From an uncultured Desulfomonile sp. (lineage in GTDB: Bacteria > Desulfobacterota > Desulfomonilia > Desulfomonilales > Desulfomonilaceae), in the NCBI GenBank assembly GCA_903952205.1, contig CAJBEZ010000037.1, positions 310,001 through 374,000 of the forward strand: a DNA stretch of 64,000 nucleotides, read 5' to 3'. The notes beneath the pieces were generated by a model. It was given only the letters and a program-made list of their open reading frames with translations. It was not told the origin of the DNA and did no database searches. This document shows, piece after piece, positions 33,070 through 43,019 of this stretch (position 1 is its first letter; every line of letters starts with the position of its first letter). The translations under genes were made by a program, and so were the position numbers.

Positions 33070-33408
33070 TTATTTTTTCATGATGTCTTGTCTTGTGACG
33101 TTCATAATTCTTATGACCTTGTTCTTACCATCTACAACTTTATAGGCAATCCTAACGATGTCTCCGGGAACCGCCTCTTTGCCTATAAGGGCTTCTGAGA
33201 GGTCGAAAACCATTGTCTTCCCGGTTGGATTGCCATATTTGTTCTGCGGAGTGAAATTTATGTCATACTCCTCAATGGTTATTGATTTCGTTTTGGTGTC
33301 ATTGGTCACAGTCTTGCCCTGCGCGACTTCCGCTGCAAGTGCGGGAGTGACCAGAAAAATCAGTGTTAGGACGCAACTGATATAATATAAGCAAAATCTC
33401 TTTTTCAT
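33070..33408 (-). CDS. Small secreted protein of unknown function
   Basis: 112 aa with a signal peptide (KKRFCLYYISCVLTLIFLVT, cleaved after ALAA). The mature part of about 85 residues looks like a small beta domain: KSITIEEYDINFTPQNKYG, MVFDLSEALIGKEAVPGDIVRIAYKVVDGKNKVIRIMNVT. GAGGTGA lies about 7 nt before ATG 33408. It is 38 nt downstream of the TauE-type gene on the same strand, so it may be a periplasmic component of that locus; I do not recognise the family. Confidence 0.75.
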   Translation of the reverse strand: MKKRFCLYYISCVLTLIFLVTPALAAEVAQGKTVTNDTKTKSITIEEYDINFTPQNKYGNPTGKTMVFDLSEALIGKEAVPGDIVRIAYKVVDGKNKVIRIMNVTRQDIMKK

Positions 33409-33446: not shown

Positions 33447-34469
33447 CTAATGAGAAGCGGCCTTCTTTTCCCGTAATTCTTTAGCGGCGCCGCTAAACAT
33501 TATCCAGCAGATGTATACACAAATGCTTCCTACCGCACCCAGAATGAGCACTGTCGCCGATGTATTGAACCCGTACTGCTTTAGAATTATGGAAACCATA
33601 CATGCCAAAACCGCCAATCCAAAAGCGATACGAATACCGTATCCTTTGGCGTATTTTGTGGCTACGGTTCCGATTTGAGCTCCAATAGCGGCGCCCATTA
33701 GCATTACGAACACGGCGTAAATCTCAATTCGACCTTTAGCCCCGTAGGTGAATGTTCCATAAAGACCCGAAATCATAACCTCGAAAAGGTCAGTTCCAAC
33801 AGCTATATGCGTCGGGCAACCGATCAGGTAAACGAGAGCCGGCATGCGGATTAAACCACCGCCAATGCCCAGAAAACCTGCCAGGATCCCTGTGAGGAAA
33901 CTTACCATAATGGGTAACCATGCCGAGCAGGTAAATCCCGCTGTTTTGAAATGAACCATTGGAGGGATCTTGATCCGATGAAGTGTTTTGTACCAGGTGA
34001 TGCCTTCAGCTCCGTGCTCCCCGACGTCTCCCGCTTTCTTTTTCTTGTTCGCTTTATAATAATCATAGAAAACCATGATACAAATTAATGCGAGGAGTCC
34101 AACGTACACCCATCGGACAACGGGACCAATCGTGCCTAGACGTTCAAGCCACATGACTACCTGGGCGCCGATTTCTATGCCGATAACCGTTCCTATGATC
34201 ATTATACATCCGAGCTTATAATCGACGTTTCCAAATTTGGAGTGCCGAAATGTCGAAATCATCGATTTACCGGCTATGTGCGCTATGTCGGTGCCTATAG
34301 CGAATGCCATTGGGAAGCCGAGGATATTTAGACCGGGAGTGACCATCCAGGCCCCACCCATACCAAAAAATCCACCGATACATCCCACAGAGAAGCCTAT
34401 CAAGACCAATCCAGGCCAGAAGATGTCGACGCCTGAGATGGGCATATACATAGTGTACCATTCCAACAT
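33447..34469 (-). CDS. TauE/SafE-family sulfite/sulfonate exporter
   Basis: 340 aa with about nine membrane segments. Two family repeats are seen: GGFFGMGGAWMVTPGLNILG near residue 35 and GFLGIGGGLIRMPALVYLIG near 200, each with the GxGGG/P pattern of TauE/SafE permeases, and an acidic HIAGKS/DLFEV pair after each. Members carry sulfite, sulfoacetate, taurine-derived anions or other organic anions. It follows the small membrane-protein gene by 40 nt. In a sulfur-metabolising organism sulfite or a related anion is plausible; the direction of transport is not visible. Confidence 0.9.
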   Translation of the reverse strand: MLEWYTMYMPISGVDIFWPGLVLIGFSVGCIGGFFGMGGAWMVTPGLNILGFPMAFAIGTDIAHIAGKSMISTFRHSKFGNVDYKLGCIMIIGTVIGIEIGAQVVMWLERLGTIGPVVRWVYVGLLALICIMVFYDYYKANKKKKAGDVGEHGAEGITWYKTLHRIKIPPMVHFKTAGFTCSAWLPIMVSFLTGILAGFLGIGGGLIRMPALVYLIGCPTHIAVGTDLFEVMISGLYGTFTYGAKGRIEIYAVFVMLMGAAIGAQIGTVATKYAKGYGIRIAFGLAVLACMVSIILKQYGFNTSATVLILGAVGSICVYICWIMFSGAAKELREKKAASH

Positions 34470-34509: not shown

Positions 34510-34812
34510 TTAATGCTCGACAATTTTTCTGGACGTCAGGTCTATTCCAATCCGTTTCATGATTTGATCCGTAATTAATCCGAGGGTGACTCCCATTAAA
34601 GCAGTAATTATCGTAACCTCAAGTCCGAACCACAGTGGGTTGGTGTTGTAGGAATCTACGAAGTATCTTCCCCAGCCTGCGCTGACTCTTCGACTGTCCG
34701 CTACGACGATCAACATTTCCGCCGCTGGTCCGGCCGCTCTGACAAGTTCGGGCAGAAACACGGTGAAGACTGTCGCTCCTAACGTGAGCAAAGTGTGTAA
34801 ACGTTTTCTCAT
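34510..34812 (-). CDS. Small membrane protein upstream of the TauE-type gene
   Basis: 100 aa from ATG 34812 (AGGGAGGT about 8 nt upstream). Residues 1-27 form a signal-type helix ending VRAAG; a second helix lies at about 60-82 (LWFGLEVTIITALMGVTLGLI). It resembles the small membrane proteins found beside TauE genes in Desulfovibrio (I recall the name DVU0150 family, unverified). Its constant position suggests a partner subunit of the transporter. First gene of the unit 34812 to 33070. Confidence 0.7.
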   Translation of the reverse strand: MRKRLHTLLTLGATVFTVFLPELVRAAGPAAEMLIVVADSRRVSAGWGRYFVDSYNTNPLWFGLEVTIITALMGVTLGLITDQIMKRIGIDLTSRKIVEH

Positions 34813-34867: not shown

Positions 34868-35116
34868 GATCATCTAAGTAACTTGCAACCCTTATGCCAG
34901 TATTGTTGACTCCTGCTGAAAGCGGCAGGTGACTAAACAAGACATTGTATCAATCAACTTTTAAAATCGGTTCGGCTCATCGTTAAGACGGTGTCCAATT
35001 TCTTTACAACGTGTAAATTATCGAAACCTTTTCACTTCGGCATCAAGACCACAGATCCCGGGGATGGACGAAATGTCTTCTTTTAAAGGGGTTTGTGAGG
35101 TTGAGCGAAGTAGACT

Positions 35117-35182
35117 TCAGGGGCATATTTATTGCTCAAGATGCTGTAGAATTCGAATAGTGATATGTCAGCAAGCCCCTGA
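35117..35182 (+). promoter_or_regulatory. Potential structured leader before the phosphohistidine protein
   Basis: TCAGGGGC (35117-35124) and GCCCCTGA (35175-35182) are perfect 8-bp inverted arms, with inner TTGCT/AGCAA complementarity, ending 14 nt before the ATG at 35197. In RNA this would be a long hairpin next to the AAAGGT ribosome site and could affect translation. There is no resemblance to a riboswitch class I know. Confidence 0.3.
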
Positions 35183-35196
35183 GAAAGGTACGTAAT

Positions 35197-37851
35197 ATGG
35201 CAGGCATCCTGAACAGAATTATTGACCGCATAAAAGTCTGGCAAAGAAATGACAAGACCCGAACGAATGACAAGATTTCGCGGGTTTTTAGATTCAAATA
35301 CTCATGTTTCAAGGATTTACTGGCTTCTAATACCGAGATGCTGGATATAATCACCGATATCGAGGAAAGACTTCGCGGCGAAAACATATTTGGAATGTCT
35401 TACGTGAAGACACAAGCCACCCGGTCAGTCTTTCACACGTTGAGAATGGTCAAGAGTCTGGACGATCTTTCCGGTCACCATTATCCGATGCTTTTCAAGA
35501 CCCTCGACGATATTAATAATTCTATAAACGAAGAACTTAACAGACGGCAGGAACTCAGGATCGCCGATTACACTCTGCCGTATTCTCAGATAAATAAAAA
35601 CATGTCCGACTGGGTGGGGGGAAAGAACGCAAATCTTGGGGAAATCAAAAACAATGTTGGGTTAATTATCCCAGAGGGCTTTGCGATCACGACCAGCGCG
35701 TGCGACTACTTTCTGGGGGCAAATGACCTACTGGATCAAATAACTCGACTGAGGGTAAATCTGGACCCGGATGATCCAGCTTCAATCAATATTGCCGGCG
35801 AAAAGATTCAGGGCCTCATATTGGACTCCGAGCCGCCAAAGGACCTGGTGGATAAGATCCTGTCGGCCTATTCTGAACTGAGCGAAATGGTTGGCGCCCG
35901 GAACTGTCCCGCCGAGAGAAATAGGCCGCTAGTGGCGTTAAGGAGCAGCGCCATAGGTGAAGACAGTTCACTTTCTTTCGCGGGGCAATATTTAACGTTA
36001 TTGAATGTTGAGGAAGAAGGAATCATTGAGGCTTACAAATCTGTTGTAGCGAGTCTATACAACACCCGCGCTCTGACTTACCGACTGGAGAAAGGAATAA
36101 GGGACGAAGACATCTCAATGAGTGTGGCATGCATTGAGATGATAGATTCTGAGGCAAGTGGTGTCATGTACTCCAGACATCCATTCGACATGGTCAAAGA
36201 CGAAGTGTTGATTAACGCGGTATGGGGACTCGGCCCATATGCGGTTGATGGGGTAGTAAACCCTGACGCGTACCTGATATCCAAAGACGGGAACCTTACG
36301 ATCATCAGTAAAATAGTATCAGAAAAACCTGTTGAGCTAAGACTTAAACAGGGTGGCGGGGTTGAGGAGGCTATAATCCCGGAAGCTAAAAGGAACGAAG
36401 CCTGTCTCACAGATGAACAGGTCAGAACTCTGGCCGGTTATGCATTAAGGCTTGAAAACCATTATCAGTGCCCTCAGGATATCGAGTGGGCCCTTGACAG
36501 GGCCGGTCGGCTGCTGATTCTCCAGTCAAGACCACTGCGTATAGAGGATATCCTTGATAAGGCCGGTATTTCGGCTTTCCCTGCCGTTGAGGGTTACGAT
36601 GTGATCCTCCAGGGAGGCTCATCTGCGTTTCCTGGAATAGGATGCGGTCTGGCTCACCATGTAAGAAACGATGAGGATTTACTTGATTTTCCGGTCGGGG
36701 GAGTCCTGATAGCGCCACACTCGACGCCTCAGTTTGTTGTAGTCATGAAAAAGGCTTCGGCTATTGTCACTGATGCTGGAAGTGTCACGGGTCACATGGC
36801 TTCCCTGGCGCGTGAATTTGGCACGCCAACTTTACTCGGAGTAATAGGGGCGACCAAGACTATTATGCAGGGAGCGGAAATCACTGTAGACGCATATTCG
36901 GGGAGAATTTACAGTGGCAGAGTTCCCGAACTTCTTTCAATCCAGAGGACTAAAGATTCGAGCATCAAGGATACACCAGTCTATCAGGCTCTAAAAAAAG
37001 TTTCAGATCTAATAATCCCCCTGCGCCTGGTCAATCCAAAAGCATCCAATTTTGCGCCGGAATACTGTTCTACGCTTCACGACATTATGCGGCTAGTTCA
37101 CGAGCTTTCCTACAGGGAAATGTTCAAGATAAGCGACATAGTCTCGGATACGGATGGGGCCGGAGCCAAGCAACTTAGGGCTCCTATCCCGTTGGATTTG
37201 CACATAATTGACTTGGGAGGAGGCTTTACGCATGTTTCCGAGAAAGCAAGATTTGTCTCAGTCGAAGATATAACATCAATACCGTTCAAAGCAGTTCTTG
37301 CAGGCATGTTACGAGATGATTTGAGGCATCATGGAGGCAAACCAATTGATCTCGGAGGCTTTTTTTCCGTAATGAGAGAGCAGATGTTTGCTCCAAACGT
37401 GCCTTCTGAACGTTTTGGTGACAGAAGTTACGCAATAGTCTCGGACAAATATCTCAATTTTAGCTCAAGGATAGGTTATCATTACAGCGTGCTCGACGCG
37501 TTCTGCAGCGAATCTACGAATAAAAATTTTGTGACGTTTTCCTTTAAAGGCGGGGCTGCGGACGACATACGAAAAAACAGGAGGGCTCGCTGTATTGGAT
37601 TGATTTTTCAGGAACTCGGTTTTCAGGTTGAAGTAAGAGAAGATAGAGTGGACGCTCGCTATTACAAATACGATGAAGAGGCAATCCAGGAAAAGCTTGA
37701 TCTAGTAGGAAGGCTGCTCCAGTTTACAAGACAAATGGATATGCTTATGCAGAGTGAAGCTAGTGTGCAGGCTATAGCTCAAAGTTTTCTTGACGGCAAT
37801 TATAGCTTGGACGCGGAGTTTTGGCAGGGATTAACTTCTCACGATCGATAA
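35197..37851 (+). CDS. ATP-grasp (PEP/pyruvate-binding) protein with phosphohistidine domain and atypical C-terminus
   Basis: 884 aa, soluble. Residues 1-125 are helical and unassigned. Residues about 130-460 are the PPDK_N ATP-grasp domain (WVGGKNANLGEIKN, VALRSSAIGEDSSLSFAGQYLT cut here as family blocks, and GVMYSRHP, CPQDIEWALD). Residues about 495-580 form the swivelling phosphohistidine domain, with the histidine in DAGSVTGHMASLAREFGTP. The C-terminal 300 residues lack the PEP/pyruvate TIM-barrel motifs of PpsA or PPDK and hold blocks such as PLDLHIIDLGGGF and FVTFSFKGGAADD. It should be able to autophosphorylate on His from ATP; the acceptor is unknown. It is named after pyruvate-water dikinases by likeness only. 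Confidence 0.88.
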   Translation: MAGILNRIIDRIKVWQRNDKTRTNDKISRVFRFKYSCFKDLLASNTEMLDIITDIEERLRGENIFGMSYVKTQATRSVFHTLRMVKSLDDLSGHHYPMLFKTLDDINNSINEELNRRQELRIADYTLPYSQINKNMSDWVGGKNANLGEIKNNVGLIIPEGFAITTSACDYFLGANDLLDQITRLRVNLDPDDPASINIAGEKIQGLILDSEPPKDLVDKILSAYSELSEMVGARNCPAERNRPLVALRSSAIGEDSSLSFAGQYLTLLNVEEEGIIEAYKSVVASLYNTRALTYRLEKGIRDEDISMSVACIEMIDSEASGVMYSRHPFDMVKDEVLINAVWGLGPYAVDGVVNPDAYLISKDGNLTIISKIVSEKPVELRLKQGGGVEEAIIPEAKRNEACLTDEQVRTLAGYALRLENHYQCPQDIEWALDRAGRLLILQSRPLRIEDILDKAGISAFPAVEGYDVILQGGSSAFPGIGCGLAHHVRNDEDLLDFPVGGVLIAPHSTPQFVVVMKKASAIVTDAGSVTGHMASLAREFGTPTLLGVIGATKTIMQGAEITVDAYSGRIYSGRVPELLSIQRTKDSSIKDTPVYQALKKVSDLIIPLRLVNPKASNFAPEYCSTLHDIMRLVHELSYREMFKISDIVSDTDGAGAKQLRAPIPLDLHIIDLGGGFTHVSEKARFVSVEDITSIPFKAVLAGMLRDDLRHHGGKPIDLGGFFSVMREQMFAPNVPSERFGDRSYAIVSDKYLNFSSRIGYHYSVLDAFCSESTNKNFVTFSFKGGAADDIRKNRRARCIGLIFQELGFQVEVREDRVDARYYKYDEEAIQEKLDLVGRLLQFTRQMDMLMQSEASVQAIAQSFLDGNYSLDAEFWQGLTSHDR

Positions 37852-37895: not shown

Positions 37896-38291
37896 TCAAA
37901 GGACCAACTTTCTCCTTGCGATTTTTCTGTCATATGCGTTTTCGATCTTTTCCAGCAGAGTTTCAATAGAATACGGTTTTAGCAGATAGTCATAGGCCCC
38001 GTTTCTGATAATACTTTTGGCGGTTTCAACAGAAGCGTGACCAGTCAAGACGATAACCTCTATGTCAGGATCAATTTCCTTGATTTTAGGAAGGGCTTCA
38101 ACTCCACTCATTTCAGGCATTCGCACGTCGAGGATGACAACATCATAGTGATTTTTTCTAAGTTCATCCAAAGCTTGGGTAGCGGAACCGCACGTTGAAG
38201 CCTCTAAACCCTCTGCGGTCAGAAGCTTGCGCATGGTAGAGCGAAAGCGATCTTCATCATCAACAATCAGGACATTAGGTTTATTGGTCAT
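37896..38291 (-). CDS. Single-domain response regulator (NtrC-type receiver)
   Basis: 131 aa. VLIVDDE at the N-terminus, phosphorylation aspartate in VVILDVRMPEMSGVE near residue 53, VLTGHAS switch threonine near 82 and lysine in YLLKPYS near 105; a helical basic tail follows. No output domain. Twenty nt downstream of the histidine kinase gene on the same strand, its likely partner. A short gap separates its stop from that of the convergent phosphohistidine protein. Confidence 0.93.
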   Translation of the reverse strand: MTNKPNVLIVDDEDRFRSTMRKLLTAEGLEASTCGSATQALDELRKNHYDVVILDVRMPEMSGVEALPKIKEIDPDIEVIVLTGHASVETAKSIIRNGAYDYLLKPYSIETLLEKIENAYDRKIARRKLVL

Positions 38292-38310: not shown

Positions 38311-39207
38311 TTAGGATTTCACTGGCAGCCTGACCGTGAAAAGGGTTCCTGTATTGGGCCTGCTTTTGACAGTGATGGAACCGCCAAGTCTTTCGATGAT
38401 TCCTCGGCAAATCGCCAAACCTAGTCCTGTTCCATTTTTATCCTGTTTGGTTGAAAAGAAAGGGAGAAAAATTTTTTCAAAGTTTTCTTCAGGAATTCCG
38501 CAACCGTCATCCTGAATCTCTATATCTACCCATAGTTTGTTGATGAATTTGGTCCTGAGGTCTATCGTCCCGTGTTCCCCGATAGCCTGTCTGGCGTTCA
38601 TGACAATGTTTAGAAGGACCTGCTGAATTAGTGGGGCGTCCGAATTTATGATCGGCGCTCCGGGATCCAGTTCAAGATTAACTTTTATGTCGCCAGAACG
38701 GCCCTCTCTAATAATTATTTCGTGAACGACTTTTACAATCTCGTTAATGTCGATGTTCTGAATCACGACATTCAATTCTCTGGCCATACTCAGCAATTTC
38801 TGGACAATCTGATTGCATCGATGAACCTGATTCTCAATCTCAACAAGAGAATCCGTGCAGTCCTGGATATCCTTCATGTTATCAGGAGGCGATAAAATCT
38901 TATTTAACAGTCTTTTGGCCCAGTGGGCTTCTTGAGCAATTATGGCAAGAGGATTGTTTATCTCGTGGGCTATTCCTGAAGCTAACTCATCAAGGGAAGA
39001 AAATATCTTTGGCCTGTTAGATGTCGGGTCTCTTGCCGGATTGGCGTCCCGGCCTTGGGAGGCATTCAATAGAGTTCTAATTTGAAAGAACACACAACAA
39101 GACAAAATTATGACGATGGATGCAGATAAGATATTGCCTGACGCGAAGAATAAAAAGCCCGTCACGGCTAATAGAACTGGCGCTAAGTAGTTAATTCTCC
39201 GATCCAT
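38311..39207 (-). CDS. Membrane-bound sensor histidine kinase
   Basis: 298 aa from ATG 39207 (four codons longer from a TTG). Two hydrophobic segments in the first 50 residues with almost no periplasmic loop, then HisKA with ELASGIAHEINNPLAIIAQE near 78, N-box NIVMNARQAIG, DDGCGIP and [18 protein letters not shown]. It is the NtrB-like type common in deltaproteobacteria. With so small a periplasmic part it may sense within the membrane or through a partner such as the nearby permease. Between two receiver genes. Confidence 0.93.
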   Translation of the reverse strand: MDRRINYLAPVLLAVTGFLFFASGNILSASIVIILSCCVFFQIRTLLNASQGRDANPARDPTSNRPKIFSSLDELASGIAHEINNPLAIIAQEAHWAKRLLNKILSPPDNMKDIQDCTDSLVEIENQVHRCNQIVQKLLSMARELNVVIQNIDINEIVKVVHEIIIREGRSGDIKVNLELDPGAPIINSDAPLIQQVLLNIVMNARQAIGEHGTIDLRTKFINKLWVDIEIQDDGCGIPEENFEKIFLPFFSTKQDKNGTGLGLAICRGIIERLGGSITVKSRPNTGTLFTVRLPVKS

Positions 39208-39281
39208 GTTTATAACCAACTAATAATCACAGGGAACAAGACGACTTCGTTCATCGAGAAATTATAAAGTATCAATTACTG

Positions 39282-39674
39282 TCAGACGCCTCTTTCCTGT
39301 TCAATCAATTTCCTGTCATAAGCCTGAACGATAAGATTCAGTAATTCATTAAACGGAACAGGTTTCATCACATAATTGTAGGCTCCTAATTGCAACCCCT
39401 GTATGCCGGCTTCCACCGAACCATGTCCCGTTAGCATGATTACTTCAGTCAATGGTTTCTTCTTTTTGATTTCCCTTAGAACCTCGATCCCACTCATCTT
39501 GGGCATTTTAACGTCAAGCACGACCACGTCCGGATCCTTGGACTCTACCAGTTCTAGACCATCGGGCCCGTTCATTGCTCCGTAGGATTCAAGCCCCTTG
39601 TCTTTTAGTCGCTTGACCATCGTGTCTACAAAATCAACCTCATCATCTATCACTATTACTTTGAACCGGTCCAT
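39282..39674 (-). CDS. Single-domain response regulator
   Basis: 130 aa. VIVIDDE, aspartate in VVVLDVKMPKMSGIE near residue 54, MLTGHGS and YVMKPVPF with the lysine; a short helical tail. AGGAGG lies close upstream of ATG 39674. Its sequence is close to the receiver at 37896, suggesting the two receiver/kinase pairs arose by duplication. Lies just downstream of the Cache-type kinase. Confidence 0.93.
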   Translation of the reverse strand: MDRFKVIVIDDEVDFVDTMVKRLKDKGLESYGAMNGPDGLELVESKDPDVVVLDVKMPKMSGIEVLREIKKKKPLTEVIMLTGHGSVEAGIQGLQLGAYNYVMKPVPFNELLNLIVQAYDRKLIEQERGV

Positions 39675-39726: not shown

Positions 39727-41397
39727 TCACATGGAACTCGAACCCTGCGGGACACTAATAATGAATGTGGTCCCTTTCCCTTCCTCGCTCTCTACAGCAA
39801 TATGTCCCCCGAGTTTTTCCATTATTCCGTAGCTGATTGAGAGTCCAAGTCCGGTTCCTTCATCGGGTCTCTTCGTGGTGAAAAAAGGATCGAAAATTTT
39901 GGATATCAACTCTCTTGAAATTCCCGGGCCATTGTCCGATATCTTTACCATAATCTGTTTATGGTTCTGTTTGTCGGTAAAGGTTTCAACCCTAATTTGG
40001 CCTGATTGTCCTACGGCGTCAATGGCGTTATCTATAATGTTTAAAAAGACCTGCTGAAGTTGGTTCGGGTCTGTAGAGATTTTTGGAAGATTGTCATCGT
40101 AATTGGTCTGTATTTGTATGTCCCTGAAATGCGCTTCATTCTCAAGAAACGTCAATGTTTCCATCAATATTTGATTAATATCCACGAGTTCCTGGGTTGT
40201 TTCCATCCTTCTGCCAAACCTGAGCAATCGATGCGTTATTTCTCGGGATCGATTAACCTGACGTTCAATCTTTTTTATGCATTGGTCAAATTCCTCAAAA
40301 TTCTCAGTCTGTTTTATGTCCTCAGAATCGAGGAGATCTTTCATCCATCCTGCTTGATCGCCGATAATTTGAAGAGGGTTATTGATTTCGTGGGCTATCC
40401 CTGCCGCCATCTTACCTAGGGCCGCCATCTTGCTTGACTGTATGATCAAGTCTTCGCTCTTCGATTTTTCTTTCTCGATTTCCTTCAATCTTCGAGTCAT
40501 GACTCGTGTGGTTAATACAGTTCCAATGATGACAAGGAAGACGCCAAAAGCCAATATCACGGCTTCAATATAGTGGGCCCTGAAGAGCAACGCCATCTCT
40601 TCTTGGGGATCCTCTGAAATCACCAGGACCCAATTCGGATTCACGATCGGAACGGCCGCGTACAGAGTTTCATTCCCTTGAAAACTCAGCGTCTCAACTA
40701 TTAGTGCACGTGATGATGAAAAATCAAGGGAACTTGGATGGGTCAGCAATTTTCCAGAGAATCGAGGCGCCGTCTGAAGGATGTTGGCCCTGTTAACTAT
40801 AAAAGCGTCTCCACGTTTTCCAATCTGGGCTCCAGCGACTATTTCGTCTATAATTGCAGAATTGATGGTCGCTCTAAGGATCCAGACCCGATTATTCTGA
40901 ACCGTGGTAACCGCTATTATGAAGTGAGGCGCTTTTCTGAACCCGAGAAATACATCGCTCACATAGGCGCCGGTTGATTGAACCGCATTAAACCAATCTT
41001 CATGGGCATAGTTAACGGACATGAGTTTGTCGTGATAAGGGCCTACGTAAGCAAGATGATTCCCTTCCGAGTCAATTATCCCCAAATCGATAAATGACTT
41101 TGACCTCGACTGCATAGCATTAAAAACCTTGGTCAAAAATGTTTCGTCTGCAAGTTTTTCGAAAGAATGAGTTTGGGCAATCGTGTTTAGCTGAGATATT
41201 CTCTCATCAATAAAGAGTTCGAGGGAGCTTTTTCTATTCTGGGCTAGGTTTCGTAAAGACTCAGTCATCTTATTTTGAAAAGTGCTGTTGAACTGATAAT
41301 AAATTGTCGCTCCCAATGTAAATAGAGGGATCAGCGAGAAGCCAAGTGTTACAGCTATGATTTTAAGACCGAGCTTTTCGAAATGCTTTTGGGACAT
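39727..41397 (-). CDS. Sensor histidine kinase with periplasmic dCache domain
   Basis: 556 aa. A membrane helix at 12-34, a periplasmic sensing part at about 35-275 that looks like a double Cache domain (LGIIDSEGNHLAYVGPY, DWFNAVQSTGAYVSDVF, VWILRATINSAII), a second helix near 278-300, then HisKA with KMAAGIAHEINNPLQIIGDQ near 340 and HATPase_c ending DNGPGIS/GTGLGLSISYGIMEKLGG. Cache domains bind small molecules such as organic acids or amino acids. The product pairs with the receiver 50 nt downstream. A C-terminal ATP-binding region is complete. Confidence 0.95.
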   Translation of the reverse strand: MSQKHFEKLGLKIIAVTLGFSLIPLFTLGATIYYQFNSTFQNKMTESLRNLAQNRKSSLELFIDERISQLNTIAQTHSFEKLADETFLTKVFNAMQSRSKSFIDLGIIDSEGNHLAYVGPYHDKLMSVNYAHEDWFNAVQSTGAYVSDVFLGFRKAPHFIIAVTTVQNNRVWILRATINSAIIDEIVAGAQIGKRGDAFIVNRANILQTAPRFSGKLLTHPSSLDFSSSRALIVETLSFQGNETLYAAVPIVNPNWVLVISEDPQEEMALLFRAHYIEAVILAFGVFLVIIGTVLTTRVMTRRLKEIEKEKSKSEDLIIQSSKMAALGKMAAGIAHEINNPLQIIGDQAGWMKDLLDSEDIKQTENFEEFDQCIKKIERQVNRSREITHRLLRFGRRMETTQELVDINQILMETLTFLENEAHFRDIQIQTNYDDNLPKISTDPNQLQQVFLNIIDNAIDAVGQSGQIRVETFTDKQNHKQIMVKISDNGPGISRELISKIFDPFFTTKRPDEGTGLGLSISYGIMEKLGGHIAVESEEGKGTTFIISVPQGSSSM

Positions 41398-41692
41398 GAA
41401 AATCCTCCGACACCGGTCGGTCAGTATTTAGATCGGGCTCATTTGCGGATCGCTGCGCCGGCTGAAAATGGACATCAAGTTTTTCGCAACAATCCTATGA
41501 CGCTACTTGGCGTAAAACGCTGATGAAATCGAGCATCGAATAGAATTAGAGCAAAGCCCGTGCCACAAGCTGAATAACTCTCCAACCTCATAGGAATCTC
41601 ATGTAATTCAAATTCCAAGACAATCCATGATGCGGAAAATGCCCTTTATTTTTTTGGCTGGAAGGAATATTTATGGTGGTATGTCAGTAATT

Positions 41693-41858: not shown

Positions 41859-43019
41859 ATGGAAAAAGCTGAAATGAACAGATCTAAAGTCTTGGTCGTC
41901 GAAGATCATCCCATGAGCCGACGCATCTTGGAAACCATGTTAACCAAGAACTACAACGTTATCTCGGCCGAATCTGGGAAAGAGGCTATTGAGAAGGCCC
42001 AGGTTGAACCTCCTGATCTGGTATTGCTGGACATAGAAATGCCTGGACTGAATGGATTTGAGACGCTTGCAATATTGAAATCCGGGATCATACAACCTGC
42101 TGTGCCAGTAATATTCCTTACTGCCCTGGAAGATTCAAAAAGCCGGGAAACTGGCCTTGAAGCAGGCGCTGTTGACTATATTACCAAGCCCTATGACAGA
42201 CAGGAACTTCGGATAAAGGTCAAGAATCACCTTGCCCTTTATGAGGCTCGCAAGGAAATCGAGGCCAAAAACAGGGTAATGGCTAGAGAAATGGAGATGG
42301 CCTCTCAATTACAGAGGTCTTTATTGCCCGAAGAATTTCCTGTGGTCGATAGGATTAAGTTTGCGGCTTTGTACAAGCCAGTCTCCCCGGCCGGGGGAGA
42401 CTTTTATGACGTCATTGAACTCGGATCATCCGTTATAGGATTTGCTGAAGTTGATGTATCCGGACATGGGGTTGCTTCTGCGATGGTGGGGGCAATGTTT
42501 AAGATGGCCTTTCAGTCATTCGCAAACACTACTCGGTCCCCTGCAGAGCTGCTGAGGGTTATAAACGACCAGATGTATGGAATTCTTCCGGATTCTGACT
42601 TTCTTACGGTCTTCTACGGCATAATAGATCTTCAAACTCTTGAGTTAGTCTACACAAACGCAGGGCACCCCAAACCTATGCTTTTTAGGAGTAGAAACGA
42701 AGAAATTGAGGAACTTGGTGTGGGTGGACCCTTAGTGGGAGCCCTAATGGGGATGGATTACGAAGAAGACAAAATACAGCTCAATTCCGGTGACAGAATC
42801 CTCATTTTCACTGACGGTGTTACAGAAGCGTCTCCGGCAATTGAGCAGGAAGATTCAGATGAATTCTACGGGATAGAAAGGCTCAAGGAAAAATTTCTAG
42901 TGAACTCAACACTTGAGTCAAAGGACATCCTGAAAGTGGTCATGGATGATCTTATAGCATACCACGGTTCGCAATCATTTGATGATGATATAACTATTTT
43001 CCTCGCTTCAATAGTCTAA
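41859..43019 (+). CDS. Response regulator fused to PP2C/SpoIIE-type phosphatase (RsbU/RssB-like)
   Basis: 386 aa. Receiver at 8-125 (VLVVEDH, LVLLDIEMPGLNGFE, YITKPYD), a helical linker ending AREMEMASQLQRSLLPEEFP, and a PP2C/SpoIIE phosphatase at about 165-386 with GGDFYD, DVSGHGVASAMV, TVFYGIIDLQ, YTNAGHPKP, FTDGVTEA and DDITIFLA. Such proteins dephosphorylate a phosphorylated STAS anti-anti-sigma factor when the receiver is activated. A STAS gene lies at 45650 and an RsbW-like kinase at 46041, so the system is local. Confidence 0.95.
   Translation: MEKAEMNRSKVLVVEDHPMSRRILETMLTKNYNVISAESGKEAIEKAQVEPPDLVLLDIEMPGLNGFETLAILKSGIIQPAVPVIFLTALEDSKSRETGLEAGAVDYITKPYDRQELRIKVKNHLALYEARKEIEAKNRVMAREMEMASQLQRSLLPEEFPVVDRIKFAALYKPVSPAGGDFYDVIELGSSVIGFAEVDVSGHGVASAMVGAMFKMAFQSFANTTRSPAELLRVINDQMYGILPDSDFLTVFYGIIDLQTLELVYTNAGHPKPMLFRSRNEEIEELGVGGPLVGALMGMDYEEDKIQLNSGDRILIFTDGVTEASPAIEQEDSDEFYGIERLKEKFLVNSTLESKDILKVVMDDLIAYHGSQSFDDDITIFLASIV

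Follow-up and report, generated by a model that had tools for sequence, protein, structure and literature searches.

The window, by which we mean the whole 64,000-nucleotide stretch of uncultured Desulfomonile sp. DNA that was analysed, encodes a PPDK-like protein of 884 residues. On one side, the gene is flanked by divergent genes for a DVU0150-family protein and a TauE/SafE permease, and on the other by a kinase-receiver-kinase-receiver set. The features of the locus are as follows:

33070-33408, minus strand: small exported protein with a weak DUF4881-like C-terminus (Pfam E 1.5e-5, below cut-off)
33447-34469, minus strand: TauE/SafE (TSUP) anion permease, 340 aa (Pfam E 1e-41)
34510-34812, minus strand: small DVU0150-family protein with a single TM segment and a conserved C-terminal GIDLxSRxxxEH (NCBIfam NF040783, above cut-off)
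34884-34899, minus strand: sigma54-like -24/-12 site TGGCATAAGGGTTGCA, 71 bp before the DVU0150-family/permease genes
35121-35136, plus strand: sigma54-like site GGGCATATTTATTGCT, 60 bp before the PPDK-like gene
35197-37851, plus strand: whole gene of the PPDK-like, predicted phosphohistidine phosphotransferase (ORF of 884 aa, Pfam, 80-row full-length alignment)
35278-35580, plus strand: N-terminal helical domain, residues ~28-128, conserved in the family (AlphaFold helices 2-59, 67-92 and 98-114)
35611-36540, plus strand: ATP-grasp domain (PPDK_N, PF01326), residues 139-448 (Pfam E 4e-95)
36691-36903, plus strand: swivelling phosphohistidine domain (PEP-utilizers, PF00391), residues 499-569, with His533 in a GH motif (Pfam E 2e-18)
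36949-37848, plus strand: uncharacterised C-terminal domain, residues 585-884 (~590-884; no Pfam match, AlphaFold)
37896-38291, minus strand: single-domain response regulator without an output domain (Pfam Response_reg over 7-117 of 131 aa)
38311-39219, minus strand: histidine kinase (Pfam HisKA and HATPase_c)
39282-39674, minus strand: single-domain response regulator without an output domain (Pfam Response_reg over 6-115 of 130 aa)
39727-41397, minus strand: dCache-domain sensor histidine kinase (Pfam dCache_1, HisKA and HATPase_c)
41550-41565, minus strand: exact sigma54 consensus TGGCACGGGCTTTGCT, 152 bp before the kinase/receiver genes

The first-pass annotation of this DNA had correctly named the permease and the two receiver/kinase pairs, but it missed the DVU0150-family protein (34510-34812) and the recurrence of such neighbours across the family. 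In an alignment of 45 relatives, the C-terminal GIDLxSRxxxEH of the DVU0150 family is near-invariant; this end of the protein is probably on the cytoplasmic side, and its conserved histidine is a candidate phosphate acceptor. The small exported protein, encoded downstream of the permease, recurs in 10 loci. A receiver-SpoIIE phosphatase gene (41859-43019), divergent from the kinase/receiver set, adjoins only one of 80 relatives and thus probably lies outside the core system.

All three transcription units in the window have a sigma54-type site upstream, and comparable sites lie ahead of the gene in some ten relatives resembling the closest orthologues. As enrichment is weak across the family (27% for PPDK_A at a score of at least 17, against a background of 13%), we restrict the sigma54 claim to the window and the closest orthologues. 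Across the window as a whole, the pattern is not enriched (19 matches, 14.8 expected). The DVU0150 family takes its name from the DVU0146-DVU0151 operon of D. vulgaris, which is a sigma54-regulated transport operon, DVU0150-DVU0146 having been independently assigned to a sigma54 regulator (PMC4641369). The passages on this operon mention no PPDK-like partner; DVU0150-family relatives adjoin both the permease and the PPDK-like gene in the window and in Nitratidesulfovibrio loci.

The PPDK-like frame starts with an ATG closely preceded by a ribosome-site-like AGAAAGG, and 79 aligned full-length relatives rule out an artefact or frameshift. As the first-pass annotation had proposed, an ATP-grasp domain and a swivelling histidine domain with a TGH motif are present, both recognised by Pfam. 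Every ATP-grasp catalytic position tested (K143, R249, D428, E430, Q443 and R445) is invariant in 80 aligned full-length sequences, as is His533 (80/80), which is preceded by glycine in 78; the regulatory threonine two residues before the histidine is retained in fewer than half of the family's sequences. Because these catalytic positions and His533 are conserved, autophosphorylation of the protein, also anticipated at first pass, is likely. Matches to PF00391 and PF01326 place the protein in the PEP-utilising (swivelling phosphohistidine) phosphotransferase superfamily, with the phosphohistidine itself predicted. The N-terminal ~125 residues, flagged early on as an extra helical segment, are indeed helical in the full-length AlphaFold model, where three long helices precede the ATP-grasp domain, and PEP synthase lacks them. 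Among 60 genomes searched, this segment was nearly confined to frames long enough for a PPDK-like protein.

The remainder of the protein departs from the PEP synthase plan. PEP-utilizers_C (PF02896), the Pfam model of the PEP/pyruvate TIM barrel, finds no match in the 884-aa protein, nor any at E<=1 in the C-terminal domains of 94 relatives. The missing barrel is meaningful because the same model detects two other genes elsewhere in the same genome. In its place, residues ~590-884 are confidently predicted to form a separate, conserved alpha/beta domain (AlphaFold pLDDT 87, pTM 0.80). The initial view of the C-terminal ~300 residues as a distinct block without a TIM barrel was thus borne out by structure prediction and profile search alike. 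The domain carries a strict signature: C624, H628, D629, R632, H635, E636, H762, GG785-786, R796, D816, R845 and D848. It has no Pfam match, and its profile retrieved nothing better than E 0.8 from PDB sequences. By structure, no PDB entry matched its fold at E<=0.001 (best Foldseek E 0.01), Foldseek against the PDB and viral models gave no confident match, and a second look with VIA-align reached Z 5.7 at best. The low-score structural matches were to bilin reductases, the C-Ala domain of alanyl-tRNA synthetase and MotA. A new fold is possible for the predicted domain, although a missing structural match is no proof of one.

Could the protein still be a standard or degenerate PEP synthase or PPDK? 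Its best curated models are PEP synthases, matched through the ATP-grasp domain, with all tested catalytic residues, and the swivelling phosphohistidine domain that follows it in PpsA and PPDK as well. These scores fall far below the cut-offs (for TIGR01418, 357.7 bits against 739.75), the NCBIfam models of PEP synthase stop matching at about residue 593, and in a search of PDB sequences PEP synthases align to residues 125-581, with nothing credible past that point. Compared with PpsA/PPDK, the window protein has the conserved alpha/beta domain instead of the barrel, an additional helical domain at its N-terminus, and GH rather than (C/S)H at the histidine. As PEP-utilizers_C is absent from the protein and its relatives, the predicted C-terminal fold is different, the active-site residues are not degenerate and genuine barrel proteins are encoded elsewhere in the genome, we give this explanation almost no weight. 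The members of a large family whose best scores are to PEP-synthase models appear not to be PEP synthases.

A dikinase core joined to a non-PEP acceptor domain, as seen here, is also found in rifampin phosphotransferase (RPH) and in the two-component HpeHI/phenylphosphate synthase, and the characterised relatives of this kind phosphorylate small molecules (PMC12167813). In RPH, however, the His domain is C-terminal, after the substrate domain (PMC12167813), whereas that of the window protein is central (499-569 of 884), and its acceptor domain is unrelated to RPH in sequence. RPH was rejected as an identity, with 220 bits to NF041857 against a cut-off of 999 and the wrong domain order. A small-molecule dikinase of this type would use its C-terminal domain to bind a compound imported by the permease, or the product of that compound, and phosphorylate it, thereby trapping or activating it. 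The shared ATP-grasp and swivel core and the known activities of the relatives fit this explanation, and several permease-matched subfamilies could mean several substrates. The strict conservation of the His/Asp/Arg/Glu signature from one subfamily to another would be in keeping with a small-molecule active site as well, which counts against reading the protein as a permease controller. We nevertheless find a small-molecule dikinase, the main rival to permease control, doubtful in light of the paralogues, permeases and mutant phenotypes described below.

While the first-pass annotation treated the protein as a lone oddity, it is one of a large family that recurs widely and includes several subfamilies, each matched to a permease. 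Relatives are encoded by 506 candidate stretches in public genomes; the best 80 of these are mostly from Desulfobacterota, with one contig labelled Riflebacteria and one Schekmanbacteria. Among 99 related genomes, 40 contain the C-terminal domain, in at most 12 copies per genome. The ATP-grasp, the histidine and the C-terminal signature are all intact in 144 of 149 long members. In four tandem paralogues the ATP-grasp is ruined while the swivel His and the C-terminal domain are retained, and an active copy is adjacent; in a fifth the His is lost as well and the C-terminal domain retained (ruined paralogues at L205:8286-10853, L049:9611-12103, L218:8554-10977, L219:9228-11705 and L217:12270-15125, the first without a PPDK_N match). 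That four ATP-grasp-dead paralogues keep both the His and the C-terminal domain suggests that the domain acts beyond one chain's own kinase cycle, and its retention in such paralogues speaks against a small-molecule dikinase. A search for plasmid spread of the family gave no plasmid match, PADLOC anti-phage defence models matched neither the PPDK-like protein nor the permease, and PHROGs gave one weak, short match.

Loci of relatives were selected by the C-terminal domain, not by permeases. A TSUP gene lies within 6 kb of 101 of the 172 non-redundant relatives, against ~2% by chance; about 40% have none at this distance, which counts against a permease role, although many contigs end early. 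In twelve related genomes, 19 of 25 relatives have a TSUP neighbour, where ~2.4% would be expected from the density of TauE genes. The best 80 of the 506 public loci, many of them short, include the permease in 54 cases and a DVU0150-family gene in 45. The pairing extends to subfamilies: PPDK cluster 6 goes with TSUP cluster 2 (50/62), PPDK 5 with TSUP 4 (12/14), PPDK 3 and 4 with TSUP 3 (15/15), and PPDK 1, 2 and 10 with TSUP 5 (4/4). This correspondence gives a Mantel r of 0.62 against a permutation maximum of 0.20; species kinship adds to the correlation but does not explain the pairing of whole paralogous clades, several of them in a single genome.

Other subfamilies have other partners. 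A lectin-fused subfamily adjoins ChrA chromate transporter genes in five loci. Relatives of ~1,050 aa stand directly beside ChrA in L041, L043, L044, L046 and L216, with ChrB too in L044; several relatives of this length carry a weak lectin/glycosidase-like C-terminal tail, and a search for fusion partners as clues gave nothing stronger than such tails. A further subfamily (L166, L167, L163 and L165) has a TSUP permease, an Alph_Pro_TM protein and universal-stress-like proteins as neighbours, which points to another permease-matched version. The common theme of the family's neighbourhoods is an oxyanion permease. For a small-molecule dikinase acting on different substrates, a single signature across subfamilies with different permeases, including ChrA, would be odd. 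If instead the protein acted indirectly, by changing metabolism (AMP/ATP, Pi) or gene expression, then its link to the permease would be mere co-regulation, and sigma54-type co-regulation could hold the genes together. We consider this very unlikely, as the matching of permease subfamilies to protein subfamilies is specific and spans many genera and, in the nitrate cluster discussed below, mutant phenotypes are common to the permease, receiver and PPDK-like genes.

Output-less receivers and histidine kinases are the usual neighbours of relatives. A single-domain receiver lies within 3 kb of 95 of 171, and of the 113 relatives whose loci extend at least 3 kb to either side, 95 have either a TSUP gene (within 6 kb) or such a receiver (within 3 kb) nearby. 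As both receivers in the window lack an output domain, the output of the circuit is probably protein contact. Transfer from phosphohistidine to aspartate is established chemistry for HPt domains, and phospho-His533 might exchange phosphate with the neighbouring receivers, so that the protein would be an ATP-fed input or sink of the two-component circuit. The frequency of receivers near relatives and their missing output domains both fit such a phosphorelay. The swivel His, however, is a PPDK-type site and not an HPt helix, and a relay would leave the conserved C-terminal domain and the permease pairing unexplained; we regard it as distinctly unlikely.

The link to a permease has a genetic counterpart in Desulfovibrio, where insertions in a cluster of D. 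vulgaris and D. alaskensis (DVU0251-DVU0245 / Dde_0597-0605) lead to nitrate resistance (Korte et al. 2014, PMC4001038). The cluster comprises the TauE permease DVU0251, DVU0250, a PtxB-like protein, a kinase, the receiver DVU0247 and the PPDK-like DVU0246 (PMC4001038). Like the window, it has a permease, a receiver, a kinase and a PPDK-like gene, but its permease is of another clade and its partners are DVU0250 and the PtxB-like protein. Single mutants of DVU0246, DVU0247, DVU0250 and DVU0251 grew equally with or without 100 mM nitrate, whereas a DVU0245 mutant showed no such resistance (PMC4001038). A leaky thiosulfate transporter was proposed for the cluster (PMC4001038), and PMC9723548 takes up the same interpretation.

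In Desulfovibrio sp. Rs511_bin20 (L223), we find the gene order and domains of the nitrate cluster (DUF169, TauE, DVU0250-like, phosphonate-binding protein, kinase region, 119-aa receiver, PPDK-like). Its PPDK-like protein, an 887-aa frame, carries the family's C-terminal domain (E 4e-61) and signature; most of the Nitratidesulfovibrio genomes searched, from the genus including D. vulgaris, encode a counterpart with >=92% identity. Judging by this synteny, DVU0246 would carry the domain too; as published (2235 bp), DVU0246 is shorter than the 887-aa frame. The nitrate-cluster paralogue and the window protein are only ~28-33% identical over the main domains, a point against carrying the phenotype over to the window. 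Because the permease gene comes first in the cluster, we infer that an insertion in DVU0246 cannot silence it by polarity, so that loss of the phosphotransferase behaves like loss of the permease. Nitrate itself is not plausibly phosphorylated, and a small-molecule dikinase would not readily account for a gene loss that mimics loss of the permease. This phenotype and the single signature across subfamilies with different permeases favour permease control over a small-molecule dikinase. The transport-regulating role that had been raised as a possibility at first pass thus gains backing from the family-wide TSUP pairing and from the published mutants of a homologous cluster.

Given that anion-uptake permeases and two-component regulators accompany its genes, the protein probably controls or powers those permeases, rather than making PEP. 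We propose a model, to which we give an even chance, in which an ATP-driven phosphohistidine phosphotransferase activates or energises its partner anion permease under two-component control. Judging by the conserved catalytic residues, His533 would be autophosphorylated from ATP, as in PEP synthase, rifampin phosphotransferase and HpeHI. The swivel would then hand the phosphoryl group on to the domain at the C-terminus, a stand-in for the PEP/pyruvate barrel, and through this domain the permease would be activated or energised; in the window, that permease is the TSUP protein together with a membrane subunit of the DVU0150 family. One of the proteins in this complex is the probable phosphoryl acceptor. 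The two kinase/receiver pairs probably set the activity of the phosphotransferase by protein contact, perhaps at the N-terminal helices, and sigma54 probably drives co-expression of the three transcription units. What the sequence shows is the domain make-up, its conservation, the pairing with permeases and the sigma54-like sites; the phosphorylation chemistry, the acceptor and the direction of control are our inference.

In outline, this arrangement is similar to nitrogen PTS enzyme I (PtsP), a swivelling-His phosphotransferase whose regulatory outputs include transporters. PtsP takes its phosphate from PEP and its carriers are HPr-like, whereas the donor site of the window protein is an ATP-grasp, and none of the annotated neighbouring genes is HPr-like. 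More broadly, and tentatively, we suggest that the family may constitute a previously unrecognised phosphotransfer system, fed by ATP and widespread in anaerobic Desulfobacterota. In it, an autokinase of PPDK type, equipped with a new acceptor domain, would control or energise oxyanion permeases (TSUP, ChrA) through phosphotransfer, itself subject to two-component receivers that lack outputs. Such a system would parallel the regulatory PTS in function, but run on ATP rather than PEP.

Neither the catalytic core nor the phenotype of the nitrate cluster is new, the latter having been published; what is new is their extension to a general system, and the literature searched holds no description of the C-terminal domain, the family-wide partnership with oxyanion permeases or their co-diversification. 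A phosphohistidine enzyme with an uncharacterised domain is thereby tied to anion permeases that seemingly admit nitrate, and perhaps thiosulfate, to sulfate-reducing bacteria, which bears on the inhibition of these organisms in oil fields. Permease control would explain nitrate resistance after disruption of a 'dikinase' gene and, if true, would be a rare case of phosphotransfer controlling secondary anion transporters. The defined His residue and the conserved signature are now targets for testing. Elsewhere in the same genome, we also observed two adjacent gene pairs that separate a PPDK_N-only protein from a swivel-domain protein (G000:C37:216473-217880 and G000:C37:230167-231495), a layout resembling that of phenylphosphate synthase or HpeHI.
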